Source of the DNA: a virus
Virus record (IMG/VR): IMGVR_UViG_3300037076_000058
Coordinates: 1-23,299 of that record
DNA: 23,299 nt
Direction: 5' to 3' (one strand)
The translations under genes and the position numbers were made by a program. Below, piece after piece: positions 1,609 through 23,213 of this stretch (its first letter is position 1; the number at the start of each line of letters is the position of its first letter). A model generated the notes under the pieces. That model searched no databases, was not told the origin of the DNA, and saw nothing but the letters and a program-made list of their open reading frames with translations.

Positions 1609-3534
1609 CTAGAAACTTCCTGTGAATACCTTTTTTGTTGTTTCCAATATACCCGCACCACCTAAAGCTCCTTTTAATAATTTTCCTCCTGTTGTGTCTC
1701 CGAATTCTGATAATTTACTTCCTTTAAGTTTTGTGTTGACTTCTGCATTAGTCAAAATAGATTGTTGAGATTCATACATATTTGTCATATCCTCAAAAGC
1801 AACCCTAGAAGTTTCCCCCAATCCGTTCTTCGTATCATTTAATGCTGTTTTGAATATCCTTCTATTTTGTAGCCATTCTACCTTACGTGCTTGTAGAGAT
1901 TCAGAAGATAAACTATTAGCTTTCTTAACTGCATCTGGGATTGTTCTATCATACTCTTTTGCAACCGTCCAAATATCGTCTAAGTTTCCGTTAGATTTTG
2001 AAGCAACTTTTTTGATTATAGCTTCGAATTGAGTTTGTCTCTTTAGCACATTCTTTTCTTCTGTTGCTGGAGCATCTTTCATTTGTTTATCTTTTATAGT
2101 AGCCCAATCATCCTGCATCTTTTTAACTGTTTCAAATTTAGTAGGAGTCTTTTCTAGTTCTGGTTTTAGTTTTGTTGCTGTTTTATTTATATTATCTTTT
2201 ATAGTGTCGTAAAGTGTTGGCTCATCCATTTTTTCAGCTCCGGGAATTAATTTCTTGATTGTTTGAACTTGTGCCAGTTGTTCGTTTGATGTTGCGATTC
2301 TGTCTGGAGTTTCACCTTTAAATAGGGTGGATTCTTTTCCTTTATATAGTCTACCTTGCATTTCTGCCAACTTAGCTTCTTTTGCAGTTGGTTTTGGAGA
2401 GATTAAATCTGCAATCTTTTGATCTGCTGTTGGTTCTGGAGTAGTTATACCAACTTTATTTGAAGCATTTTTAACTGTTCCAGATATTTTGGCATCTACT
2501 TTTGATGCACCTGCTTGGAATTTATCTAGAACTGATGGAGTTTTAGGTGTTGCACCTAATGTGTTTCCTGTCATATCCATAAAGTATTCTGGATTAAATT
2601 TACCCCAACTCTTTGCTCCAACATTAGTCATTGTTCCTTTTCCATTTGACATTTGGGGAATAGCATCTTGGTTTAATGATCTTGTAAGAGCATAATGTTC
2701 ATCTTGTGTCAATGGACGTGATAGTTCTCCTACGAATGTTGGTTCAGTTCCAGATGGGTGAGTTGCACTAGAAATAACCTTCACATCTTTTGGAAGTGCA
2801 TTTAATACATCTTTTTCTGTTATTTTACCTCCTACGTTTGTGTTAAGTCCAATATTTACAAAATTGCCTTTTGGTGCGTTTGGAACTGTAACTTTTTCAA
2901 GAGGAGCTTTTTCTGCAAATGCTTTAAAGGCATCTTTCACTCCTGCTGGAATTTGACTTGCAATTTTATCGAACAATGGTGTGCCATATTTTTCTAGAGA
3001 TTTTTGTATGAATGGTGTGGCTTTTTGTATTCCCAAATCAGTTATCTTTCCGAAGATTGCTCCACCAAGTCCAGAGTAGAATATATCTGCTGGTGTTCCA
3101 CCTTGTTCTAGTGAATTTCCTCCCATAATTAATGAACCTCCCAACATTGGGTTTCCTGTTGCCAAACCGGCTACTCCCAGTGCTTGACCTGCAACGTCTT
3201 TTACACCAACATCTTTTATTGGTTTTACTTCTGTTCCTAGTCCGGGAACTCTTGACGGTGTAGCTACTGCTGTGTCCAAGTTTTCATTAACTGTTTTACC
3301 GTTAAAAGTTTTCATCTTTCCAAGTTTTCCTCCACTTAGAAAGTCTGCACCTTTTACTAAACCTACACCTATTCCTTGTCCTGCTTCTGTCGCTAGTTTT
3401 GCAACTGGATCAAGAACTGCCCCAGCTATTGATTGAGCTAAATTTCTTCCTTGTGGTGCTGGTGTATTAACTACCGGTAGTTTTCCGGGTGTGAATGGAA
3501 TCATTCCTGTTGTTTTTGGTGCGAATGGTATCAT
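1609..3534 (-). CDS. Probable internal virion (ejection) protein
   Basis: This 641-residue protein has a Pro-rich start (MIPFAPKTTGMIPFTPGKLP) containing a short internal repeat. A Gly/Ala-rich, mildly hydrophobic region follows over about residues 35-190 (GIGVGLVKGADFLSGG, GVAGLATGNPMLGGSLIMGG), then a mixed middle and a Lys/Glu-rich helical C-terminal half, and it ends with another small-residue patch (LLKGALGGAGILETTKKV). Amphipathic Gly/Ala tracts with long helices are typical of podoviral ejection proteins that enter the cell envelope during DNA delivery. I see no lysozyme or transglycosylase motif. The start at 3534 lies 4 bases after the previous stop; the longer frame from 3606 would overlap the neighbour by 68 bases. 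The role is inferred from composition and from its place after the tail genes. Confidence 0.6.
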   Translation of the reverse strand: MIPFAPKTTGMIPFTPGKLPVVNTPAPQGRNLAQSIAGAVLDPVAKLATEAGQGIGVGLVKGADFLSGGKLGKMKTFNGKTVNENLDTAVATPSRVPGLGTEVKPIKDVGVKDVAGQALGVAGLATGNPMLGGSLIMGGNSLEQGGTPADIFYSGLGGAIFGKITDLGIQKATPFIQKSLEKYGTPLFDKIASQIPAGVKDAFKAFAEKAPLEKVTVPNAPKGNFVNIGLNTNVGGKITEKDVLNALPKDVKVISSATHPSGTEPTFVGELSRPLTQDEHYALTRSLNQDAIPQMSNGKGTMTNVGAKSWGKFNPEYFMDMTGNTLGATPKTPSVLDKFQAGASKVDAKISGTVKNASNKVGITTPEPTADQKIADLISPKPTAKEAKLAEMQGRLYKGKESTLFKGETPDRIATSNEQLAQVQTIKKLIPGAEKMDEPTLYDTIKDNINKTATKLKPELEKTPTKFETVKKMQDDWATIKDKQMKDAPATEEKNVLKRQTQFEAIIKKVASKSNGNLDDIWTVAKEYDRTIPDAVKKANSLSSESLQARKVEWLQNRRIFKTALNDTKNGLGETSRVAFEDMTNMYESQQSILTNAEVNTKLKGSKLSEFGDTTGGKLLKGALGGAGILETTKKVFTGSF

Positions 3535-3538
3535 ATAA

Positions 3539-5503
3539 TTATAGTGGTGTTGCTTTACCGCTTTTAATGTCGTCTGGGGTAGCGTATACTGGTTGTCCTG
3601 TTTCATTATCTAGTGCTGGTTGTGTTCCTTGTGGAATATTTGCTTTCATTTCTGTCATAAGAGCATCATAGTTATATCCTTGTCTTACTAGAGATTTTTC
3701 TACGAATGTTTTATCATCTGTAACCGAACTTCTCATTAATTCTGGAGCTTTACTTGCCATACCATATAGAGCTTTAATTTCGTTAGGAAATGAATTTGTT
3801 TGCTTATCAAAGTTTGCAATAACGTTATTCATATCGTTTTCCATAGCTGTAACAACTTGTTTGAATACTTCCGGAGATTGAGATGCACTAATAAGTTTAT
3901 CTACTTGACTTTGAGCCGAGTCGGTTAGAGCTTGTGCTGATTTTGCTCCACCAGATGTAACTTTAGCGTATTCACGTGATGCGGTGTAGATGTAAGTTTC
4001 GAATTGTGCTAGGTCTCCTGCTGGGGTAAAGTTTCCTTGCATCCATTGTGCAAAGTTGTTAGCTATTTTTGCTCCACTTCTTCCAACCTTATCACTTTGT
4101 GCTAGAGCTAGGTTAAGGTTGTCAACCGCAGTGCTTCCGTATGTATGAATAAATGAAGCTGTTTGTAGAAGTTGCAAGTTAGCTGAACCCAAGTTCTTAA
4201 ATTGAGTCTTGGCGATTGCAACATCGAATGGAGTCAAACCGTATGCGTTCATAATTTGAGTTTCTTTGTCCTTTACTGCTAGAATTGCACCGGATGGTGT
4301 TCTTCCTCCTACTGTTGATGTTGAACCCAACATATCCATAATGGCTAGGTTGTAAAGGTCTTGTTGAGACACTGGAACGGTAGAACCTTTTACATATACT
4401 GGCTTACCAGAAATAAGTGTTTGTAGAACTTGTGCTGGGGATGCTCCGTCCGCCAATGATACTTTAGGATATTCAGTGGTATTACCAACATTAGTTGTTC
4501 CATTCTTTGATATTCCTCCGTTACCAGATGAAGTAGTTGTGGTTTGTGCCTTGTTATCAGTTGGTGCAGATCCGGGATTTTCTGTCCAGACTACTTTATT
4601 TCCAATAACGTTTCCTGCTGGGTCGTAGACATTAACTTTAGTTGATTTCCAACCAGTTTGTTCAAGTTTTTGTGTGAATTGAGTTTGTTGAACATCCATC
4701 TTTTCACTTGCTTGGTCTATCTTTTCTTGACCTTGTTTTAGTTGTTCATTCTTATAAGATTGAGAAACCATATCATTATAGTTCTTACCTGCTATATTTT
4801 GTTCACCAACTAATTGTGTTCTTGAATCTAATAGACTCTTTCTTTCTGCGAGTAGAGGAGCATTTTCTGCTAGAACAGTTGAACGAAGTTGAGACTCATC
4901 AACGATACCTCCAGAACGAGAAATTTCATCCCTCTTATTTTGAAGTGCAGAGTCAATAGCTTTATTTATTTCGTCAATTTGTGCAGTAACTTGCAAAACA
5001 GATTGTTGTGCAGAAGTATATGCTTGTCTTGATTGTGTAACCTCTGGAGCTTCATTGGTAGGTGTGCTATTATCTGGTGTTGGGTTTACAGCACCAGAAA
5101 TAGAACCGGGAACTGTTGGATTTGTTGTATCTGGAGCTGGAGAAGTTGTTGTAACTGCTGGAGTAGCACCGGCAACAGTTCCACCAACGGTAGGAGTAGT
5201 ATTTTTAGGAGCACCTGTCTTCAGAGATTTCAATAGTTGAGTATTTTGGTCATAAGAACCAGTATATCCAGTTATACCATAATCTGAAGCAAGTTTTGAA
5301 CGTGCTTGGGTTGAACTATCTTGACCTTGAAATGCTAAATAGTCCACGATTGATTGGTCTGGTTTATATGATGAAAAAGTATTCTTTAGACCGGTCAAAT
5401 CTTGAATTGATGCCGTTGAATACTTTGAAATTTCATAGGGAGTTGGTGCTCGTCCTACTTGCTTTTGGAATATATCTGAGATTTGATTTTCTGTTATTGC
5501 CAT
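3539..5503 (-). CDS. Probable internal virion/ejection protein with coiled coil
   Basis: This 654-residue protein begins with a small helical domain (ENQISDIFQKQVGRAPTPYE, about residues 4-80) that recalls DUF4214-like 'GRAPxxxE' modules. A Thr/Pro/Val-rich linker follows (about 95-155), then a long coiled coil (about 155-275, Gln/Glu/Lys-rich), a small beta-like insert (VNVYDPAGNVIGNKVVW), a Ser/Thr/Gly linker, and a helical C-terminal half from about 345. The elongated helical design fits an ejection or tape-measure-like role. It starts one base after the stop of the nozzle-like gene and ends 4 bases before the next gene, so the three are probably co-translated. No enzymatic motif was seen. 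It could also be a tail-associated scaffold protein. Confidence 0.6.
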   Translation of the reverse strand: MAITENQISDIFQKQVGRAPTPYEISKYSTASIQDLTGLKNTFSSYKPDQSIVDYLAFQGQDSSTQARSKLASDYGITGYTGSYDQNTQLLKSLKTGAPKNTTPTVGGTVAGATPAVTTTSPAPDTTNPTVPGSISGAVNPTPDNSTPTNEAPEVTQSRQAYTSAQQSVLQVTAQIDEINKAIDSALQNKRDEISRSGGIVDESQLRSTVLAENAPLLAERKSLLDSRTQLVGEQNIAGKNYNDMVSQSYKNEQLKQGQEKIDQASEKMDVQQTQFTQKLEQTGWKSTKVNVYDPAGNVIGNKVVWTENPGSAPTDNKAQTTTTSSGNGGISKNGTTNVGNTTEYPKVSLADGASPAQVLQTLISGKPVYVKGSTVPVSQQDLYNLAIMDMLGSTSTVGGRTPSGAILAVKDKETQIMNAYGLTPFDVAIAKTQFKNLGSANLQLLQTASFIHTYGSTAVDNLNLALAQSDKVGRSGAKIANNFAQWMQGNFTPAGDLAQFETYIYTASREYAKVTSGGAKSAQALTDSAQSQVDKLISASQSPEVFKQVVTAMENDMNNVIANFDKQTNSFPNEIKALYGMASKAPELMRSSVTDDKTFVEKSLVRQGYNYDALMTEMKANIPQGTQPALDNETGQPVYATPDDIKSGKATPL

Positions 5504-5504
5504 T

Positions 5505-7514
5505 TTATTTTACGATTGGAACTATCTTATTAATTTTAGGTCTCCAAGTTCCGGTGTTAACTGTTGATAATACTATTTTTAACTGGTCTCCAGTAAATCC
5601 TTTCACATCTAGTCTTGTTCTTTTTGTTGTTAAATATTTTGATGGAGTTATTGAGTCTAGTGTGTAGGAAACTGGTTGTGATGTTGAGTCTTGGTAGTCT
5701 TCTCCTTGCCCATAAATAGTTACATTAATAGCATCAGTTCCTCCTTGTGGTGGTGAATCGTAATAAATATCTATTGCTTGAAGATTCTTTACTGGAATCC
5801 AGTGTGATTTATATAGGATTTGATTATAAGATCCGGAAGATGGATAAATATAAATATCTCCGGGGATACCGGGATTGAAAACACTAGCATAAAGTATTCC
5901 ATCATATCCGACAGTAAATTGGTCAAGTCTTAACCCACTATTTATTATAAACTCTGATTGACCAACTTCTTGTTTTCCATATATCATTAGTGGAGCTATT
6001 AAACTATCACTATTATTATCATCCAATCTAAGTCCAACATTATTTTTATAATTGAATATAGAATCAGAAACAGGTGCATTTGAACCACCAACAAAATCAC
6101 TTATTGTAGAATATTGTTGTGTGAATACTTCTTTAAGGATTGTGTTGTATAGAAAATATAGTTTTGTTTTTCCTGCACTTACTTCAACTGAAACATATAG
6201 AATTGAATCTATAACTTTCATAGATATATACTTACCGGGTATCTTTACAGAGTAGTTTTGTTTTAGTGAAATACCATCCCATAAAAATAGGTAGTTTTGT
6301 GGATAACCAAAAATACCAGAACCAGATGTTCTTCCTCCAGCTACTGCTAAATATTTATTATTATAGTTAACTACTCCAAGTATTCCCCATCCTTTTCCAA
6401 GATCAAGTGTATTTTGAGTTGGTGTTGATGTTCTTATTTGTGCGGTTATATCTATTTTATCTAACAATCTATATGGTTGATCTCCAGAAGGTGCATTTGC
6501 AACAACCATAAAATCTAGGAAAGGTTCTAAGAAGTGAATTCCACCGGGAGATGATAAACTACCACCACCAACCAGTGTCCAACCACTAAACGGAAGTGGC
6601 ATATAATATACTGCACCTGCTATTGAAGCGTATAGATTACCTCCTGCTATTGCTAATCTTCCACCAACATAATTAGATGACGAACCAGACGGATAACCTA
6701 AATCTGCTATGGAGGTTGGTGTTATACCATAAACTCTAGTAGTAGATGTTATTATAAAAGCAGAGTATGTTCCTTCGGTATCTGAAATAATATTTACTAC
6801 TCCTCCTTCTATTGGAGTTGGTATAATTCCTCCTCCATATATATAAAAAATTAACGATACTCCCGAATCTGGATTCCAGTTAACTCCATCACTTGTATTA
6901 CTTTCATTTCCATTATACACAGCAGTAAGTTGTGCACCAACTGCTATTGAAGCAGATGTTCCACTTGTATAACTTAAAACAATAGCATAATTCGTGTTTG
7001 CATTTAGTGTTATTTTATTTACACCAGAAAATATGAAATTAACTGCCAAGTCTGCACCAGATGAAAATCCTCCTACTCCAACATTGTCAGAAGTAGCTAG
7101 TGCAGATCCAGTTGGTTTGCTTGTCGTTCCAAGTGAACCAGTTACGGCATAAATAGAAACTGTTGCATTTCCAGCAGGTGATCCTACTTGTTTAGCTAAA
7201 AAGAATTGAACATTTGATAAAACTATTTGTGTGGGATTATGAAAAGTTTGAGCTAACTTTACATATCCACCATTATTACCTAATCCTAAATTAATTCCAA
7301 GATGTGATTCATCATAGTTTGTTATTAGTGTTGGAGACAATTTAGAAAAAGCTAAAGAAGCCATCAGAGGTGCAAACTGTTCTTCTTGTGTTCCGGTATC
7401 ATCTAGATAATACGTAGGGTTAGCACCGGCAATCAAATAATGCTGATTTTTATCAGTGTATTGCGGAATCTCCGGGCTCATCTTCAAAAAATTTTCTATT
7501 GCTATATTACTCAT
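5505..7514 (-). CDS. Nozzle-like tail protein with jelly-roll and propeller-like regions
   Basis: This 669-residue protein is rich in Gly, Ser, Thr, Tyr and Asn and looks all-beta. Residues about 65-230 (FHNPTQIVLSNVQFFLAKQV, VSIYAVTGSL, ITLNANTNYAIVLSYTSGTS) resemble a 'choice-of-anchor R' style beta-sandwich. From about 235 onward there are repeated four-strand blocks such as GGRLAIAGGNLYASIAGAVY and NKYLAVAGGRTSGSGIFG, consistent with a beta-propeller as in podoviral nozzle proteins. The C-terminal end (KYLTTKRTRLDVKGFTGDQL...PKINKIVPIVK) is typical of such proteins. The internal ATG at 7514 is preferred over 7544 because it overlaps the stop of the 40-codon gene upstream by 8 bases, as elsewhere in this operon. 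Its place between adaptor and ejection proteins supports a tail-nozzle or receptor-contact role. Confidence 0.65.
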   Translation of the reverse strand: MSNIAIENFLKMSPEIPQYTDKNQHYLIAGANPTYYLDDTGTQEEQFAPLMASLAFSKLSPTLITNYDESHLGINLGLGNNGGYVKLAQTFHNPTQIVLSNVQFFLAKQVGSPAGNATVSIYAVTGSLGTTSKPTGSALATSDNVGVGGFSSGADLAVNFIFSGVNKITLNANTNYAIVLSYTSGTSASIAVGAQLTAVYNGNESNTSDGVNWNPDSGVSLIFYIYGGGIIPTPIEGGVVNIISDTEGTYSAFIITSTTRVYGITPTSIADLGYPSGSSSNYVGGRLAIAGGNLYASIAGAVYYMPLPFSGWTLVGGGSLSSPGGIHFLEPFLDFMVVANAPSGDQPYRLLDKIDITAQIRTSTPTQNTLDLGKGWGILGVVNYNNKYLAVAGGRTSGSGIFGYPQNYLFLWDGISLKQNYSVKIPGKYISMKVIDSILYVSVEVSAGKTKLYFLYNTILKEVFTQQYSTISDFVGGSNAPVSDSIFNYKNNVGLRLDDNNSDSLIAPLMIYGKQEVGQSEFIINSGLRLDQFTVGYDGILYASVFNPGIPGDIYIYPSSGSYNQILYKSHWIPVKNLQAIDIYYDSPPQGGTDAINVTIYGQGEDYQDSTSQPVSYTLDSITPSKYLTTKRTRLDVKGFTGDQLKIVLSTVNTGTWRPKINKIVPIVK

Positions 7515-7629
7515 CGTCTTCTGTGTTATCTTTTTGATAATCAACTGTGTCTAAGTCCTCATCTCCAGATGAATCACTATAATTTGTATTATCTCTACCG
7601 ATATTATTTGTGTCTGAATCTGGTGTCAT
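7507..7629 (-). CDS. Small acidic protein (40 aa), unknown
   Basis: A short frame begins with ATG at 7629-7627, one base after the stop of the HNH gene, and ends at 7507, overlapping the start of the nozzle-like gene by 8 bases (ATGAGTAA). The product begins MTPDSDTNNIGRDN and has a strongly acidic end (GDEDLD, NTEDDE). It has no hydrophobic core and is probably disordered. The tight fit on both sides, with no room wasted, argues that it is translated. Function unknown; it could be a peptide that couples translation into the following tail gene, or a small virion or DNA-mimicking factor. Confidence 0.5.
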   Translation of the reverse strand: MTPDSDTNNIGRDNTNYSDSSGDEDLDTVDYQKDNTEDDE

Positions 7630-7630
7630 A

Positions 7631-8074
7631 TTAATATTTTATAGTGTTAATACCCTTTTTTGAATTACAATGGTTACATAGTGGTTGTAAGTTTTCTATA
7701 TTATTACTACCTCCTTTAATTAATGGAATTATATGGTCTTCTGTAAGTTTTATTTCTGGTTCACTTAATCCACAACAGGGACAAGTATAATTGTATTGTG
7801 CTTTTAACAACTCCCATTCCATTAAAGTATGCGAACCTCCATTCATTCTTTTTCTAATTTTTCTTTGTTTTTCTTGGAAAGAATAATAACCGGGAGTTCT
7901 GGTTATCCAACCTTTTGCCCTTGCTTTTCCTTCGCTAATTTTAGCTCCCACTCCGGGTTGTCTTGCTGGATTTTTATCTCCCAACATATCTGGTCTTTTT
8001 ATTCCAGTTCCCAAATGATGACCTTGTTTAAACCAACCTTTGTTTATTCCATTTTTAGGTGTTCCCTTTGACAT
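7631..8074 (-). CDS. HNH homing-type endonuclease
   Basis: This 147-residue protein has a classic HNH domain in its C-terminal half: YTCPCCGLSEPEIKLTEDHI with a CPCC zinc pair, the DHI (H) core, a central Asn in SNNIENLQPLCNHCNSKKG and the second CNHC zinc pair. The N-terminal half is basic (GWFKQGHHLGTGIKRPDMLG, KISEGKARAKGW) and probably binds DNA like the NUMOD-type regions of free-standing phage endonucleases. It would nick or cut DNA at a target site and promote its own spread. It starts 4 bases after the adaptor stop and sits inside the virion operon. Its HNH core is of a different subtype from the other three HNH genes in the window. Confidence 0.88.
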   Translation of the reverse strand: MSKGTPKNGINKGWFKQGHHLGTGIKRPDMLGDKNPARQPGVGAKISEGKARAKGWITRTPGYYSFQEKQRKIRKRMNGGSHTLMEWELLKAQYNYTCPCCGLSEPEIKLTEDHIIPLIKGGSNNIENLQPLCNHCNSKKGINTIKY

Positions 8075-8078
8075 ATAT

Positions 8079-8843
8079 TTAACTCATTCCCCCTCCACTA
8101 GGAAAAGGGAATTCCCAACCACCTTGTTCTTCTTGACCTTCTACTATTCCTAACTCTGGTGGAATATGTGCTGATGCGTATGATTTAATTTCCTCTAATC
8201 TTCTTTCAAAATCTTTTTTAGCTTCTTGACTAGCAACATCATTTCCCAATCTGTGATGAATATCAATCAATGCTCCGGTTACTATGGCATCGTGGAAACT
8301 AGGGAATATTTTAGGAACATCTGTGTCTAAGATTAATTTATCTTGCGTAGCGATGTAATACATCTTTACTCCATCTGTTACAGGATACTTTGTAACATCT
8401 GTAACTAATGGTTTCAACACGAAGTAAGTTCCAAATATCATTGCTGTTGGTTGTGAGAAAATGTATGCTGGGTCTGATACTGACGTAGGGTCTATTATAT
8501 TAACTGGTTCGTATTCTGTATCAAGTGGTGCTGTTTTGTCTAATGGTTGGTATGCTACCAAAATTTGTTTTATCTTCTCATAAGCTGGTGCTGTTCCTGC
8601 TCCGTCTGGGAAGGTATAAGAACCGTCTCCTATTACTAGGTCGGTTGTCGCAATTCCCATATAGAAATTCTCGTTAACTGCTCTAACTGCTTCTTGAAGT
8701 TGTGCGTAATAAACGTTAATTATCCTAAGATAATCATTCGCATCGAAGGTATTTACATTGCATTTACCATCAAAGTATATCTTTTGTAAGATTCCTTGTA
8801 ATGTTGATGTGTCGTTTAATTTTAGTCCTGTGTATGTTCCCAT
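8079..8843 (-). CDS. Head-tail adaptor/connector (gp4/gp11-like)
   Basis: This 254-residue protein starts with helices (LQGILQKIYFDGK, DYLRIINVYYAQLQEAVRAV) followed by a beta-rich middle (TDLVIGDGSYTFPD, AMIFGTYFVLKP, MYYIATQDKLIL). Near the end is a helix pair typical of connector proteins: FPSFHDAIVTGALIDIHHRL and KKDFERRLEEIKSYASAH. This layout matches adaptor proteins of P22 gp4 or T7 gp11 type that sit under the portal. The very C-terminus is Gly/Pro-rich and flexible. It has its own promoter (8854-8881), nearly identical to the one before the portal gene. The family assignment rests on pattern recognition, not on a search. Confidence 0.65.
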   Translation of the reverse strand: MGTYTGLKLNDTSTLQGILQKIYFDGKCNVNTFDANDYLRIINVYYAQLQEAVRAVNENFYMGIATTDLVIGDGSYTFPDGAGTAPAYEKIKQILVAYQPLDKTAPLDTEYEPVNIIDPTSVSDPAYIFSQPTAMIFGTYFVLKPLVTDVTKYPVTDGVKMYYIATQDKLILDTDVPKIFPSFHDAIVTGALIDIHHRLGNDVASQEAKKDFERRLEEIKSYASAHIPPELGIVEGQEEQGGWEFPFPSGGGMS

Positions 8844-9778: not shown

Positions 9779-11581
9779 TTAATTTCCCCTATCTACCCTA
9801 TTCCAAGTAGCTACTCTTGCTACAAATAATTTCCAAGAACTATGGAAAGGAGCTATAATTACCATCTTGAATCCTGTTAATATGTATTTTCCAGTAGATG
9901 CTGTTAAATTCCATATTTTATGGAAAGTTGTTGCTATGCCTGTTAGGGCATATGATCCTTGTAATGCAGTTAGATATTTTAATACCCTATGAAGTGTTGT
10001 GCTGATTCCCGTTAGGGTGTATGTTCCAAAATCCAATGTTATCTTCCAATATTTCTTGAAGGATGTATTTATTCCAGTTAGAGTATAAGAACCGAATGAA
10101 GCCATCATAGTTTTAATCTTTTGAAATATTGTAGTCTCTCCAGTTAGAACATAAGAACCAAAAGATGCTGTAATTCTTAGAAATTTATTAAATGCAGTTG
10201 AAATTCCAGTTAGTGTATAGTTTCCTGTTTGAGCAATCAAGTGTCTTATTTTTTCAAATAACGTATTCTCTCCGGTCAATGTATATGTTCCTAGAGATGC
10301 AATCATATTTATTATTGGTCTTCTAAGGTTAGAGTTAAATCCAGTTAAGGCATACAATCCAACCCCAGCTATAATAACCTTCATCTTTTTAAACGTTGTA
10401 GCTATACCAGTCATAACATAAGAACCCTGTGTTGCTATCAAGTGCAAGTATTTATAAAATAGTGTTGCTATACCAGTTAGGACATATGCACCTTTTGTTG
10501 CAATTATCGTGTATATGCGAAATCTACGAAAAGTTGTTGCGATTCCTGTTAATACGTATGTTCCTAGTGTGGCAGTTATTTTCCAATACTTATGGAACAA
10601 AGTTGCGATTCCTGTTAATACGTATGTTCCTAGTGTGGCAGTTATTTTCCAATACTTATGGAACAAAGTTGCTATTCCAGTTAGGGTATATGCTCCTTGA
10701 ACTGCTATTATAGTATATACATTTATTGCTGTGTAAGTAATAATAAGCTTACCTGCACCTCCAGTGCCACCAGCATTACCGACAGTTCCTCCACCGCCGC
10801 CTGCTCCAGGTTGCCCTCCATTACCTCCTGTTCCACTATTTCCTCCTCCTCCGCCACCAGAATCAGAACCAGAACCATCTGTTCCATTTACTCCTGGTGT
10901 TCCACCAGCTGCACCACCAGAACCATTACCACCCCAACTTGTTCCACCAACTGACCCATTACTTCCATCGCCACTTGCACCTGCTGAACTACCAGCACCT
11001 TGACTTATACCCTTTCCATTATTTCCAGTCTGCGTCGTTCCACTAGTACCACCAGCTCCACCTGTCGAGCCACTAGCATTACTTCCTATAGTTCCCGAAC
11101 CTCCACCTCCACCGCCGCCATTACTAACGCCAGCATTTTGTCCTGCGCCACCACTAGTTCCACTTGCACCATTTACTCCACCTGAGTTTCCTGCTCCACC
11201 TCCTCCCGAAGCAATATATGTTGTTCCACCAGTTCCTAAAGCAGACCCACCAACAGTTGTTGCAGAAGAACCTCCTCCGCCACCTCCACCTGCTGTTGAA
11301 CCACTACCGCCATTTCCACCAGCATGAAAACCTGCACCTCCTGTTCCACCAGTACCAGAACCAGTACCGTTTGAAAGACCACCTGCTGCTACTTGATAAT
11401 ATAGAGTATTCCCAGCAGTAACAGAGATGCCTGTCTGTATAACATAAGCTCCCCCTCCTCCTCCACTTCCTGTTGTACATCCACCACCACCTGCACCCCA
11501 CATCTCAATCTGAACAGTAGTAACACCTGTTGGTACTACCCATGACCCTATACCTTTTGCTGTTATTACTTGTGTTGACAT
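9779..11581 (-). CDS. Glycine-rich virion protein with thirteen C-terminal repeats
   Basis: This 600-residue protein has three parts. Residues 1-30 form a beta start (WVVPTGVTTVQIEMWGAGGG), and about 30-280 are an extreme Gly-rich region, ending with a strand (GKLIITYT), as in phage glycine-rich fibre domains. About residues 288-580 contain thirteen repeats of about 22 residues with core G-x-Y-x-L-T-G (for example GTYVLTGIATLFHKYWKI). Such LTG repeats are known from many phage structural and adhesin-like proteins. Two neighbouring repeats are exact DNA copies (10536-10667). The protein is likely an appendage or receptor-binding fibre. It starts one base after the stop of the 60-residue gene, and the following HNH gene starts 4 bases after its stop. 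The opposite-strand Pro/Ser-rich frames here are shadows. Confidence 0.8.
   Translation of the reverse strand: MSTQVITAKGIGSWVVPTGVTTVQIEMWGAGGGGCTTGSGGGGGAYVIQTGISVTAGNTLYYQVAAGGLSNGTGSGTGGTGGAGFHAGGNGGSGSTAGGGGGGGSSATTVGGSALGTGGTTYIASGGGGAGNSGGVNGASGTSGGAGQNAGVSNGGGGGGGSGTIGSNASGSTGGAGGTSGTTQTGNNGKGISQGAGSSAGASGDGSNGSVGGTSWGGNGSGGAAGGTPGVNGTDGSGSDSGGGGGGNSGTGGNGGQPGAGGGGGTVGNAGGTGGAGKLIITYTAINVYTIIAVQGAYTLTGIATLFHKYWKITATLGTYVLTGIATLFHKYWKITATLGTYVLTGIATTFRRFRIYTIIATKGAYVLTGIATLFYKYLHLIATQGSYVMTGIATTFKKMKVIIAGVGLYALTGFNSNLRRPIINMIASLGTYTLTGENTLFEKIRHLIAQTGNYTLTGISTAFNKFLRITASFGSYVLTGETTIFQKIKTMMASFGSYTLTGINTSFKKYWKITLDFGTYTLTGISTTLHRVLKYLTALQGSYALTGIATTFHKIWNLTASTGKYILTGFKMVIIAPFHSSWKLFVARVATWNRVDRGN
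10536..10667 (-). repeat. Exact 66-bp tandem duplication inside repeat fibre gene
   Basis: Positions 10536-10601 and 10602-10667 are identical over 66 bases, encoding 22 residues each and keeping the reading frame. Other units of the same protein repeat are diverged at DNA level, so this copy is recent. A further partial match begins at 10668 (GTTGCTATTCC versus GTTGCGATTCC). Confidence 0.95.
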
Positions 11582-11858: not shown

Positions 11859-12278
11859 CTAAGCGATTTGTAACAAACCGTTTGTGTTATCGAAGTCAAT
11901 TACGAATTGATCTCCGTTTGCTAGGGTAACTGCTGAACCGTAATCATACCAGCAAATCAAAGCATCAGTTGGGGTAACTGAAGTTTGGTTGAAGATAACT
12001 ACGTATTGGAATGTTGCAACTGCACCAGAAGCCGTAAGAGTCAAATCAGCAAGAATCAACTTATAAGTTCCAGAAGTTTGAGTTGAAGAAGTTATAGTGA
12101 TTACTTGTGTTGACAAGTTCGTATAAGCTATTTGGGTAAGGTTAGCTAGAACCGTGTTTGTAGCTACTGGGGCATTTGCTGTTGCACAAAGTGCTACTTG
12201 CAAAGTATCTGAAGCTAGGTTATGAACCTTGTTACAAATGTCAGCTACGAAACAATTAAATTTATTATATGTTGCGAT
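11859..12278 (-). CDS. Phage virion protein; start codon unclear (ATC or frameshift)
   Basis: The frame from 12278 gives a protein starting (I)ATYNKFNCFVADICNKVH, continuing NLASDTLQVALCATANAP, with TSGTYKLILADLTL in the middle and an ICWYDYGSAVTLANGDQFVI-type C-terminus. This matches my memory of a widespread phage structural protein whose N-terminus is normally 'M-A-x-F-N-K-F-N'. In this frame there is no ATG, GTG or TTG before the conserved part: the codon at the usual Met place is ATC (12278-12276), and a stop lies at 12321-12323. A TTG at 12203 would remove about 25 conserved residues. The upstream HNH gene runs 14 bases into this gene. Possible solutions are ATC initiation, a +1 shift out of the HNH frame, or an N-terminally shortened protein from TTG. 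The protein identity is fairly sure; the start is not. Confidence 0.6.
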   Translation of the reverse strand: MATYNKFNCFVADICNKVHNLASDTLQVALCATANAPVATNTVLANLTQIAYTNLSTQVITITSSTQTSGTYKLILADLTLTASGAVATFQYVVIFNQTSVTPTDALICWYDYGSAVTLANGDQFVIDFDNTNGLLQIA

Positions 12279-12708
12279 AAAGAACTTTTGATACTGACAA
12301 TAATTCCTGTAAAATTGGAATCATCCGTTTCTCATCAGATTCACCTTTTGGATGATGTCTGTGGCACAAAGCGATGCCATTGTTAATAATATATCTAAGT
12401 TCGGGAAATTCCTTCCAACTAAAGATATGGTGTGATTCGAGACGACCTTCACAATCACTTGATAATAACCTACACGTATTATTGTCTCGTTCTAATACTT
12501 TTTTTCTCCACTGTTTATATTCTGGGTCGTGGAAACTTCTCTCGTGTCTGCCTTTTATTTTTGTTCTATCCTTAACCCACTTTGGATTATTCTTACCACA
12601 CATTGATACACGTTTCTTACCAAGCCAATACTTTGTTGGATTACTAAGTTTTCTATCTCTTAGTAATAACTTATGTTCTAATGTTTGTTTATATCCCTTA
12701 TGTGGCAT
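12265..12708 (-). CDS. HNH endonuclease
   Basis: This 147-residue protein has an HNH core at about residues 85-125: NNTCRLLSSDCEGRLESHHI with two Cys, HH, and the central Asn in RYIINNGIALCHRHHPKGES. The N-terminal half is basic and probably contacts DNA (HKGYKQTLEHKLLLRDRKLS, GKNNPKWVKDR). It is closely related to the gene at 13042 (shared WRKxVxERDNxTC, FPELRYIINNGIxLC, EKRMIPIxQELL). Its last ten codons differ from that relative and overlap the start of the downstream virion gene by 14 bases, so its 3' end has probably captured the neighbour's start region. Likely a mobile free-standing endonuclease. Confidence 0.9.
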   Translation of the reverse strand: MPHKGYKQTLEHKLLLRDRKLSNPTKYWLGKKRVSMCGKNNPKWVKDRTKIKGRHERSFHDPEYKQWRKKVLERDNNTCRLLSSDCEGRLESHHIFSWKEFPELRYIINNGIALCHRHHPKGESDEKRMIPILQELLSVSKVLYRNI

Positions 12709-13523: not shown

Positions 13524-13952
13524 TTAATAACCATACAACTGAAACCGAAGGTCTAATAAGTGTTTTTGGAAAGAAGGTTTACAGAACAAGAATTCTCGTT
13601 GTGGGAGCATACCGTAGTCTCTTGTAAATCCTTTCTTGTTAGCATTTTCATTCGGATCTGCTAGAAATAATGCTTCTTTCTGGAAATCGTTTTTCATACG
13701 AACAGATATATTTTTGTCAGTTAATTTCTTAACTGTTTCCCAATATTCCTCTTGAATTCTTAAAAGGTCTTCCGCAACACTCTTGGGAACTTTTATGTGT
13801 CCAACGAAGATTTTTCCATTTACACGAATCCCACCCTTTCCAACCATTTCTGGGTCAATGAAGATATTTTCTAATTCTTCTTCTTTTCTAACTGGAGTTG
13901 CTGTAATTGCTGGAGTTAATTTAACTGTCTTTGGAGTTGATGTTTTAGGCAT
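13524..13952 (-). CDS. Head-operon protein (142 aa), unknown
   Basis: This protein starts with a Thr/Pro/Lys-rich tail (MPKTSTPKTVKLTPAITATP) and continues with a compact mixed domain (FIDPEMVGKGGIRVNGKIFV, KVPKSVAEDLLRIQEEYWET) and an aromatic-rich end (REFLFCKPSFQKHLLDLRFQ). I do not recognise the family. It overlaps the stop of the upstream 115-residue gene by 8 bases, which suggests coupled translation. Its place shortly after the capsid gene suggests a minor head or head-completion role. Confidence 0.65.
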   Translation of the reverse strand: MPKTSTPKTVKLTPAITATPVRKEEELENIFIDPEMVGKGGIRVNGKIFVGHIKVPKSVAEDLLRIQEEYWETVKKLTDKNISVRMKNDFQKEALFLADPNENANKKGFTRDYGMLPQREFLFCKPSFQKHLLDLRFQLYGY

Positions 13953-16752: not shown

Positions 16753-17055
16753 TTATGCCGGAATTATATTGTCAATCTCCTCATCTAATATCTTAGTCAG
16801 AGACTTTGTGTCCGCAACTCGGAGTAGGGCAAGAAGTGTCTGAACCTTTAAATCGTCCTTCACCATATCATTAATTCGTTGGTGAAGTTCCTCTTTTATC
16901 TTTTCTTCTAAAATCTTCCATCCAGCAGTTCGTTTCATATTGTTTATTTCACCAATTTGTTTTTCCGATGAAGCTAAACTTTCTAAGAAAGCTATTGACT
17001 CTGGGTCGTAAGATTCTTTATCTGCTATCAATTTTTGTAAATTTTGCTTTGTCAT
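16753..17055 (-). CDS. Small helical head-operon protein (100 aa), unknown
   Basis: The protein begins MTKQNLQKLIADKESYDPES and is almost entirely helical and charged (ASSEKQIGEINNMKRTAGWK, EEKIKEELHQRINDMVKDDL). The longer frame from 17067 adds only MWYN; the ATG at 17055 is preferred on the basis of the protein start. TATAAT sits directly before this ATG, too close to serve as its promoter. It lies between portal and scaffold, where small head-assembly proteins are common. The family is not recognised. Confidence 0.65.
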   Translation of the reverse strand: MTKQNLQKLIADKESYDPESIAFLESLASSEKQIGEINNMKRTAGWKILEEKIKEELHQRINDMVKDDLKVQTLLALLRVADTKSLTKILDEEIDNIIPA

Positions 17056-17085
17056 ATTATACCACACAATTAAAATTGGTAAAGA

Positions 17086-18903: not shown

Positions 18904-18913
18904 ATATTCGAGT

Positions 18914-18941
18914 ATTATAACACACTTTTAAAATTCGTCTA
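18914..18941 (-). promoter_or_regulatory. Promoter before portal gene
   Basis: The minus strand reads TAGACG, a 16-base spacer, then TATAAT within GTGTTATAAT, ending 10 bases before the portal ATG. It is identical at 24 of 28 positions to 8854-8881. It lies in the 45-base gap after the TerL stop. Confidence 0.7.
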
Positions 18942-21761: not shown

Positions 21762-21768
21762 ATGCCCT

Positions 21769-21795
21769 ATTATACCATACAAATAAAATTGAGAA
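21769..21795 (-). promoter_or_regulatory. Leftward promoter for the late operon
   Basis: The minus strand has an extended -10 TGGTATAAT (21777-21769) and a weak -35-like TTCTCA (21795-21790) with a 15-base spacer. The start codon lies 7 bases beyond TATAAT, so transcription would begin at or next to ATG. The strong extended -10 may make up for the weak -35. Confidence 0.6.
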
Positions 21796-21808: not shown

Positions 21809-21836
21809 TTGACAAATAGAAATTGGTATGTATTAT
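21809..21836 (+). promoter_or_regulatory. Rightward sigma70-type promoter
   Basis: Consensus TTGACA (21809-21814), a 16-base spacer, then TATTAT (21831-21836). It would drive the rightward small-gene module starting at 22011, leaving a leader of about 170 bases. Confidence 0.65.
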
Positions 21837-21891
21837 GCTATTTTTAAGCTATATACTATATGGATAGTTTACTACACCATTTTATACCAAA

Positions 21892-21919
21892 TTGTCAAAT
21901 GGCTTGCAGGATTTAATAG
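21892..21919 (+). promoter_or_regulatory. Second possible rightward promoter
   Basis: TTGTCA (21892-21897), a 16-base spacer and TAATAG (21914-21919) lie closer to the first rightward gene. It is weaker than the upstream promoter and could give a shorter leader beginning near 21926. Confidence 0.4.
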
Positions 21920-21947
21920 GTATGATATTCTGTATATGTAGCTAGGC

Positions 21948-21978
21948 AAGAGCCGATGATCTCGCAAGATCAAGAGCC
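21948..21978 (+). other. Leader hairpin flanked by AAGAGCC repeats
   Basis: The leader of the first rightward gene has a 6-bp hairpin TGATCT-CGCA-AGATCA (21957-21972) overlapped and flanked by two AAGAGCC copies (21948-21954, 21972-21978). An AACGCC box follows at 21991-21996, as in the leaders of two downstream genes. Confidence 0.5.
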
Positions 21979-22010
21979 ATTAAAAAATAAAACGCCACTA
22001 CAAAAATATT

Positions 22011-22154
22011 ATGAATGAAGTCGAGAAAATGTTTGAAGAAAAAGACAAGGAAAGGGTCGAAGCAATAAAAAAGATTAAGAATAGTAAAATGGCAGAATGG
22101 GAAAAAAAGATGGCATTAAGAGCAGTAAAAAGTAGCACGTTCGGTTGGTTGTAA
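22011..22154 (+). CDS. Small charged helical protein (47 aa), unknown
   Basis: This short gene has ATG at 22011 and TAA at 22152-22154. The product begins MNEVEKMFEEKDKERVEAIK and is a single Lys/Glu-rich helix, ending with a hydrophobic Phe-Gly-Trp-Leu tail. The start is preceded by an A/T-rich stretch without Shine-Dalgarno and by an AACGCC box 14 bases upstream. It is the first gene after the rightward promoters, in a position typical of early phage regulators, but no motif shows a function. Confidence 0.6.
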   Translation: MNEVEKMFEEKDKERVEAIKKIKNSKMAEWEKKMALRAVKSSTFGWL

Positions 22155-22167
22155 TTTATAAAGTTTC

Positions 22168-22207
22168 TAACGCCTAGCCGGGAGGCATTGTGTCCCGGTA
22201 TAATACA
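22168..22207 (+). ncRNA. Structured leader: TAACGCC box plus covarying hairpin, copy 1
   Basis: TAACGCC (22168-22174) is followed by a perfect 6-bp stem CCGGGA (22178-22183) / TCCCGG (22193-22198) around the 9-base loop GGCATTGTG, then an A/T-rich spacer and the ATG at 22208. The loop and box match copy 2 at 22651-22688, but the stem differs at most positions with pairing kept, which points to RNA structure. The GCC in the box can pair with GGC in the loop (pseudoknot). Likely a cis-regulatory RNA; the ligand or protein is unknown. Confidence 0.65.
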
Positions 22208-22384
22208 ATGACAAAAAAAGATTATGTTTTGATAGCGAAGGTTTTGAAGGATAGTAGTGAGTTAGAGAGGATAGAGCCGGTGGTGTTTAAGTTGGTCTGT
22301 AAGAGGTTTTCAAAAGTTTTAGCAAATGAGAATCCACGTTTTGATAGAGGTCGATTCTTAACAGCTTGCGGAGTAGAACAATAA
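22208..22384 (+). CDS. Small conserved-type phage protein (58 aa)
   Basis: This 58-residue protein begins MTKKDYVLIAKVLKDSSELE, with a FSKVLANENPRFDRGRFLTA stretch followed by CGV near the C-terminus. The 'NPRFDRxRFLxACG' ending is widespread in small hypothetical phage and host proteins and probably forms a small helical domain. The frame opens upstream with GTG at 22190, but that codon lies inside the hairpin loop of the leader, so ATG at 22208 is chosen. It ends one base before the next gene. Function unknown. Confidence 0.75.
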   Translation: MTKKDYVLIAKVLKDSSELERIEPVVFKLVCKRFSKVLANENPRFDRGRFLTACGVEQ

Positions 22385-22385
22385 A

Positions 22386-22643
22386 ATGACAACACAAAAA
22401 ATTGGAGATAATGTGATCATAGCTTGTGAAGTTTGGAGTCGTGGAAATAGTGCTTGGGGTCATCGTGCTGTGTGTTTATATAATGGAAGGGAAGTTGCGG
22501 AGGTAAAATGCAGATACTTGAACAGGACGTGGGAAGCATACCAGTTTGACAGTGTAAAGTCCTCGTTATTGTATAAATTGGATCAAGAAAAAATTATTCC
22601 GCTTGCTGATCGATACTTAATAGCAAAAGCATTGCACAATTAA
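22386..22643 (+). CDS. Small phage protein (85 aa), unknown
   Basis: This 85-residue protein begins MTTQKIGDNVIIACEVWSRG, with two beta-like blocks (AWGHRAVCLYNGREVAEVKC, NRTWEAYQFDSVKSSLLYKL) and a helical end. The pattern 'WGHxAxLYxxGxEVAxxKxxYxNRTWExYxF' is familiar from small conserved phage proteins of unknown role. It is translated directly after the 58-residue gene with one base between them and no Shine-Dalgarno, so the two are probably one unit. Confidence 0.7.
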   Translation: MTTQKIGDNVIIACEVWSRGNSAWGHRAVCLYNGREVAEVKCRYLNRTWEAYQFDSVKSSLLYKLDQEKIIPLADRYLIAKALHN

Positions 22644-22650
22644 CAATATT

Positions 22651-22688
22651 TAACGCCTTGCTCCCGGCATTGTAGGGAGCATAAAACA
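22651..22688 (+). ncRNA. Structured leader: TAACGCC box plus covarying hairpin, copy 2
   Basis: TAACGCC (22651-22657) precedes a perfect 6-bp stem GCTCCC (22660-22665) / GGGAGC (22675-22680) around the loop GGCATTGTA, followed by ATAAAACA and ATG at 22689. It has the same architecture as copy 1 (22168-22207) with a different stem. AGGGAG in the 3' arm here could serve as a Shine-Dalgarno, but copy 1 lacks it, so occlusion is not the shared feature. Confidence 0.65.
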
Positions 22689-23213
22689 ATGAGCACTAAC
22701 AATTTTAAGTTTGAGAATGTTCTGGCAGTAGTCCCGGATTTTAAGATAGACAATAGATGCCTTGATGAAGAATGTCCGCATTTTGAAGAAGAAGGCATCC
22801 ATTGCGATCACGTTAGCGATTATTACGATTTTGACACTGAAGGATTTAATATGTTTATAGATGAAGTCAAGGCGGATCTAGTCAAAGTAGGTTTTGAAGA
22901 ATCAAGCGGATGCGATCACGACAGGAATTATAATGCTAATTATATTGCAGAAAAAACAATATACAACAGCAAGGATGAAGCATACAAAAAAATACTTGTT
23001 TTGTGGAGAGCTGGCTATTATGATGGAGCAAATATTGACTATGAGACAGAAGATATATACGATCAAGATCAAGCAAAAGAAACAGAATTCTTAAAAAGCA
23101 AAGTTGCCATCAATGAAAGAAAAGCAAAAAGAATAATATTGAAGCATTGCACGGAGTTGTTAAAAGTCGGACAATTCTCCAACGGTGAAGCAGTTTATGA
23201 ATTAAAAAAATAA
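22689..23213 (+). CDS. Acidic protein with Cys/His-rich N-terminal part (174 aa), unknown
   Basis: This 174-residue protein begins MSTNNFKFENVLAVVPDFKI and has a Cys/His cluster at about residues 24-40 (CLDEECPHFEEEGIHCDH) that could bind zinc. A strongly acidic and aromatic middle follows (DYYDFDTEGFNMFIDEVKAD, RAGYYDGANIDYETEDIYDQ), then a helical basic end (NERKAKRIILKHCTELLKVG). It is preceded by the second structured leader. No family is recognised. The acidic surface might mimic DNA, but this is only a suggestion. Confidence 0.65.
   Translation: MSTNNFKFENVLAVVPDFKIDNRCLDEECPHFEEEGIHCDHVSDYYDFDTEGFNMFIDEVKADLVKVGFEESSGCDHDRNYNANYIAEKTIYNSKDEAYKKILVLWRAGYYDGANIDYETEDIYDQDQAKETEFLKSKVAINERKAKRIILKHCTELLKVGQFSNGEAVYELKK

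Follow-up and report, generated by a model that had tools for sequence, protein, structure and literature searches.

Control of translation by structured leader RNAs has precedents in phages, the closest being the pseudoknot of gene 32 and the hairpin of gene 43 in T4 (PMC3014915). The gene 32 pseudoknot of T4, T2 and RB69 lies about 67 nucleotides (nt) upstream of its gene and nucleates the binding of gp32, while the gene 43 operator of T4 and RB69 is a fixed-loop hairpin with a UAAC loop, which lies about 40 nt upstream and controls the gene for its own, known, binding protein (PMC3014915). Also the cluster K mycobacteriophages carry short repeats, the start-associated elements SAS and ESAS, where the translation of some non-structural genes begins; inverted repeats occur in about half of these elements, which are unexplained (PMC3203893). 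The present analysis concerns a small hairpin found in two copies, HP1 (22168–22210) and HP2 (22651–22691), in a 23.3-kb record from an uncultured phage (IMG/VR record IMGVR_UViG_3300037076_000058; the whole stretch of 23,299 nt is here called the window). Tentatively, and judging from the sequence, we regard the two copies as a cis-acting leader RNA that may control the translation of two early genes through a pseudoknot involving the start codon.

The arrangement proposed here is similar to the gene 32 system in being an H-type pseudoknot in the A/U-rich leader of an early gene, with translation as the controlled step, and differs from it in that here the start codon would be part of the second helix; a single-stranded DNA-binding protein, as in the gene 32 system, was not found among the genes here. 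With the gene 43 operator the two copies share a fixed-loop hairpin upstream of a phage gene, whereas the distance, the loop sequence, the control of the gene for the binding protein and the fact that this protein is known are unlike the situation here. In contrast to SAS and ESAS, the stems of HP1 and HP2 have been re-made and only the loop and the flanks are constant.

Direct reading of the sequence showed that the duplicated element is real, and that both copies have the layout described in an earlier note on this DNA: TAACGCC, a 6-bp stem, a 9-base loop, 8–9 nt and ATG, in the same orientation before two rightward genes (Table 1). The loop reads GGCATTGTR in both. When the copies were aligned, the identical parts were TAACGCCT, the 9-base loop GGCATTGT(G/A), ATAA and ACAATGA, the stem being the part that differs. 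On the 3' side of the stem HP1 continues with TATAATACA to an ATG at 22208 and HP2 with ATAAAACA to an ATG at 22689. The DNA 5' of the flanks is the 3' end of the preceding gene, and it is not conserved between the copies.

Table 1. Positions of the two leader hairpins and associated features in the window.
Feature	Position	Strand	Remarks
Promoter, sigma-70-like, rightward, TTGACA-16-TATTAT	21809..21836	+	Upstream of the cluster, in the block conserved with L157/L158
HP1 5' conserved flank TAACGCC	22168..22174	+	Direct reading; followed by TAG
HP1 stem-loop	22178..22198	+	CCGGGA (22178–22183), loop GGCATTGTG (22184–22192), TCCCGG (22193–22198)
HP1 loop segment CATTGT	22186..22191	+	Perfect complement of ACAATG 22205–22210 (inverted repeat I17); proposed pseudoknot helix
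ACA and ATG start of 58-aa gene	22205..22210	+	Proposed 3' strand of the pseudoknot
ORFa, 58 aa	22208..22384	+	Small phage protein; related proteins occur in many phages; weak match to phrog_19432
ORFb, 85 aa	22386..22643	+	Starts 1 nt after the ORFa stop codon; without hairpin leader
HP2 5' conserved flank TAACGCC	22651..22657	+	Direct reading; followed by TT
HP2 stem-loop	22660..22680	+	GCTCCC (22660–22665), loop GGCATTGTA (22666–22674), GGGAGC (22675–22680)
HP2 loop segment CATTGT	22668..22673	+	Perfect complement of ACAATG 22686–22691 (inverted repeat I18)
ACA and ATG start of 174-aa gene	22686..22691	+	Complement of the HP2 loop segment
174-aa gene	22689..23213	+	Homologue in L157/L158, 36% identity
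aa, amino acids; ORF, open reading frame; L157/L158, related phage records described in the text.

Paired by hand, the HP1 stem consists of C-G, C-G, G-C, G-C, G-C and A-U and the HP2 stem of G-C, C-G, U-A, C-G, C-G and C-G. Five of the six pairs have thus changed on both sides and none is broken, which bears out the earlier statement that the stems differ at most positions yet pair fully. The counting tool run on the MAFFT alignment credited three double changes, likewise with no broken pair, the lower count arising because MAFFT mis-gaps the stems. A seventh pair is possible, G-U in HP1 and U-A in HP2. RNA folding gave −15.5 kcal/mol (z −2.3) for HP1 and −12.8 kcal/mol (z −2.6) for HP2.

Exact copies of the loop occur in the window only in HP1 and HP2. 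A pair of hairpins with a common 8-base loop word appeared on one strand in 15 of 200 shuffled sequences and is therefore not rare by itself, while the joint occurrence of TAACGCC at nearly equal offset, the same loop, perfect stems and an ATG 8–9 nt further on makes chance very unlikely. Because the stems have been re-made and still pair, with flank, loop and start region unchanged, what is selected appears to be structure in the stem and sequence in the flank, the loop and the start region. Covariation between just two copies is suggestive and no proof.

Two complementarities of the loop had been missed in the earlier reading. Both loops contain CATTGT, the reverse complement of the ACAATG at bases −3 to +3 (start codon included), and in both copies the flank segment AACGCC complements the loop segment GGCATT at five of six positions. 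Over the full HP1 flank, TAACGCC and GGCATTG are complementary save for one C-A mismatch and one U-G pair. The mismatch in AACGCC:GGCATT is C-A on the plus strand; on the minus strand its place is taken by a G-U pair, hence the minus-strand hairpin detected at 22671–22652. As far as the base sequence goes, the loop has a possible partner on either side, its own 5' flank and the start region.

Pairing with the start region would give an H-type pseudoknot whose first stem and second helix have 6 bp each; 2 nt (GG) would cross the second helix, 5–6 A/U nt would cross the first stem, and 1 nt would lie between the strands. Loops and helices of such lengths are feasible for pseudoknots of this type, and the two helices of an operator of the T4 gene 32 kind are found at the level of sequence (stem 6–7 bp, loop-start helix 6 bp). 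We know of no sequence relation between the hairpins and the gene 32 pseudoknot. The energy of the loop:start duplex is near −6 kcal/mol.

From this a working mechanism can be proposed, in which a leader RNA of about 43 nt governs translation initiation of the gene that follows it. The 6–7-bp stem would serve as a scaffold that needs only to pair and that presents the fixed 9-base loop. In the first state the loop CAUUGU would pair with ACAAUG, forming the pseudoknot and hiding the AUG from the ribosome; in the second the start would be free, and the loop may pair with the AACGCC of the 5' flank or be held by an RNA-binding protein of the phage or the host. Most starts of the window have A/T-rich leaders and no general Shine-Dalgarno sequence, and the same is true of the relatives L157 and L162. 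AUG accessibility would therefore be a natural control point, which makes a loop that covers the AUG plausible.

Taken alone, the loop-to-start complementarity is of modest significance. Six complementary bases at the ORFa start were obtained with about 0.9% of random 9-mers from the window, but this loop also matches two of 23 other starts of the fragment over six bases. An ACA immediately 5' of the start codon was found, among the starts listed, only in the leaders of HP1 and HP2. Several observations count against start-codon control by a pseudoknot. The two other starts that match (genes 12265–12708 and 13524–13952) do so simply because an anti-AUG is part of the loop, and ACAATG is present also at the relatives of the 58-aa gene in L165 and L167, where no such hairpin precedes it. 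The second helix is invariant between the copies (the five scored pairs never vary) and so lacks support from covariation, and a rough nearest-neighbour estimate makes the pseudoknot marginal in energy. Furthermore, there are two copies only, all within one 23-kb fragment; no copy was present in the whole records of 31 relatives, and a covariance model run over 99 related loci recovered only HP1 and HP2. In L157 and L158 this hairpin is missing before the homologue of the 174-aa gene, and the ORFa relatives have it in none of the leaders inspected, including those of L162 and L204, two records that share the terminase as well. Since homologous genes in relatives lack it, the hairpin is not tied to the 58-aa or the 174-aa gene.

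The relatives were collected by terminase identity (L156–L158 with 84%, L159 with 68% and L160–L162 with 52–54%) and 80 more through alignment, and the absence of further copies holds for relatives at or below about 84% terminase identity, not for sister genomes. Three pattern scans of IMG/VR listed no further copy. With a loose loop and flank pattern none of the matches listed had the stem-loop-start arrangement of the window; with loop, flank and CAATG all matches, each read individually, were due to chance; and TAACGCCT with the loop and R gave chance matches only. A pattern with ATGA in genome contigs produced, among the matches listed, just scattered coding-type matches, and phage and plasmid records gave tiny matches at chance level only. 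The earlier note had expected many copies in related phages, and had named their absence as refuting a selected RNA structure. Neither the scans, the 31 relatives nor the covariance model bore this expectation out, so that what stands of that claim is the constant loop and flanks with re-made, paired stems before two starts. As far as searched, the element is confined to this genome.

Two candidates from L157 were rejected. The best other match of the covariance model (6674–6734; 16.7 bits, E 1.1) lies opposite a coding ORF. A hairpin at 518 (stem TCGGGA, loop AAACATAA, 18 nt before an ATG, with a loop complementing the start) looked related and was not counted, being an isolated case in the several genomes searched and forming part of a bigger inverted repeat in non-coding DNA. 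The non-coding stretch of L157 (approximately 220–550) has an inverted repeat of about 20 nt (ACCCATAACTTARNATATTATGT) at its borders and an inner hairpin just before a 67-aa ORF, and it gave no match to Rfam.

Among the other explanations, a plain recognition hairpin for a protein or an RNase survives best and is possible, if rather unlikely. A protein of the phage or the host would bind the constant loop, perhaps together with TAACGCC, and repress, process or stabilise a polycistronic early mRNA, and the complementarity of loop and start would be incidental. A constant loop on a paired stem of free sequence is the known anatomy of phage operators, the gene 43 hairpins of T4 and RB69 sharing their loop (PMC3014915), and both copies lie at gene junctions of one rightward cluster. 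This explanation, however, leaves the complementarity of the loop to flank and start in both copies without a reason, and no candidate binding protein was identified.

We consider it unlikely that the hairpins act as DNA, as exchange sites through which the two-gene block between them (22208–22643) would be gained or lost as a unit, like the attC cassettes of integrons. HP1 and HP2 do bracket ORFa and ORFb, and L157 and L158, which have the divergent promoter block in common with the window (77% over 250 nt), lack both the gene block and the hairpins and have a different 112-aa gene at that place. However, relatives of ORFa occur elsewhere without such a hairpin, and the tight spacing of 8–9 nt to the ATG, on one strand, favours a role as RNA. 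Assignment to attC itself failed: the HP2 flank ATTTAAC fits RYYYAAC and the HP1 flank TTCTAAC does not, no 3' box GTTRRRY was seen by inspection, and there was no integrase among the window proteins scanned.

A lack of any function, the pair being a local duplication or a chance resemblance, is slightly harder still to accept. The frequency of shared loop words in the shuffled sequences and the lack of copies elsewhere agree with it, whereas in a neutral duplicate one would not expect both sides of five stem pairs to have changed with flank, loop and start region kept identical, nor are TAACGCC at the same offset and the spacing to ATG expected by chance.

With respect to known RNA classes, no family of Rfam 15 reached its gathering threshold in the window, and neither Twister-P5 nor any other ribozyme family matched 21880–22740 at E ≤ 10, which agrees with the earlier remark that the hairpin was not recognised as a known class. 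The search itself works, as Twister-P5 (RF02684; gathering threshold 37.6 bits) was recovered with 44–58 bits in the phage contigs L172 and L249. Twister-P5 resembles the present element in having a constant loop on a variable stem, with a UAAYGC-type sequence on the 5' side of that stem, and in standing just before an ATG. It differs in its loop, UCCCAAGC, and in requiring a 5' GCAGAGGG half; HP1 and HP2 have neither and score below the threshold, and were excluded from this family. The leader hairpins of L172 and L249 had looked like the same phenomenon and proved to be these ribozymes, which means that a constant loop and a re-made stem before a gene are insufficient to infer a translational operator. 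In L172 seven Twister-P5 lie within 4371–8290 (+) and in L249 five within 2436–7522 (−), about 4–5 kb each, several of them directly before start codons; the L172 copy at 4922–4981 is just upstream of a homologue of the 58-aa gene at 5001. That the hairpins are a small self-cleaving ribozyme or an RNA of the opposite strand is most improbable: on the minus strand flank and loop pair throughout (AAUGCC/GGCGUU, one pair being G-U) where the plus strand has its mismatch, a minus-strand hairpin was detected and the look-alike hairpins of L172 and L249 are ribozymes, but no ribozyme family matches the region even at E 10, the GCAGAGGG and UCCCAAGC of a twister core are absent, the spacing to the gene starts favours the plus strand and no leftward transcript is known here.

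An intrinsic terminator was also rejected, with no match on the plus strand and one weak match on the minus strand at 22671–22652; neither a T-tract on the plus strand at the hairpins nor a promoter shared by HP1 and HP2 was found.

The leftward genes of the window include those for the large and small terminase subunits, an SU10-like portal and the major head protein, and the divergent rightward cluster of small genes starts near 22.0 kb. HP1 lies between a 47-aa ORF (22011–22154) and ORFa, HP2 between ORFb and the 174-aa gene. Protein searches of IMG/VR found no relatives of ORFb or of the 174-aa protein, the homologue of the latter in L157 and L158 having turned up solely by direct tblastn. 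A third AACGCC is present at 21991–21996, about 20 nt upstream of the 47-aa ORF and without a hairpin, so that the motif occurs in three rightward leaders; its total of 6 in the window against 3.4 expected is a weak excess. Before leftward genes there is a promoter-like repeat on the minus strand (GTGTTATAATA / TGGTATAATA type, with an extended −10) at 17050–17078, 18908–18936 and 21763–21791, which suggests host sigma-70-type promoters. In the leftward block, a 484-aa protein (207–1661, −) matches the phosphoribosylglycinamide synthetase ATP-grasp (A) and C domains of Pfam at E of about 1e-7, the A domain alone being above the Pfam cut-off, and has no PHROG match. A 600-aa ORF (9779–11581, −) with several degenerate repeat families, copies spaced by about 66 nt and a long CCA/CCT-rich repeat stretch is probably a tail-fibre-like protein.

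Overall, the window contains a real, small and well-formed duplicated leader hairpin of a type not included in Rfam, for which a start-codon pseudoknot is an attractive and plausible, if unproven, explanation. It is doubtful that the hairpin represents a new class of leader RNA of about 43 nt, in which the loop would pair with its own flank or with the start codon and act as a two-state switch, perhaps in response to a ligand or a phage protein, in mRNAs that lack Shine-Dalgarno sequences. If start-codon control by HP1 and HP2 is true, it would be a compact means of controlling translation in mRNAs that offer no Shine-Dalgarno sequence for masking, with the AUG itself covered by the loop and the stem free to vary, and it would mark at least two genes of the early cluster as co-regulated.
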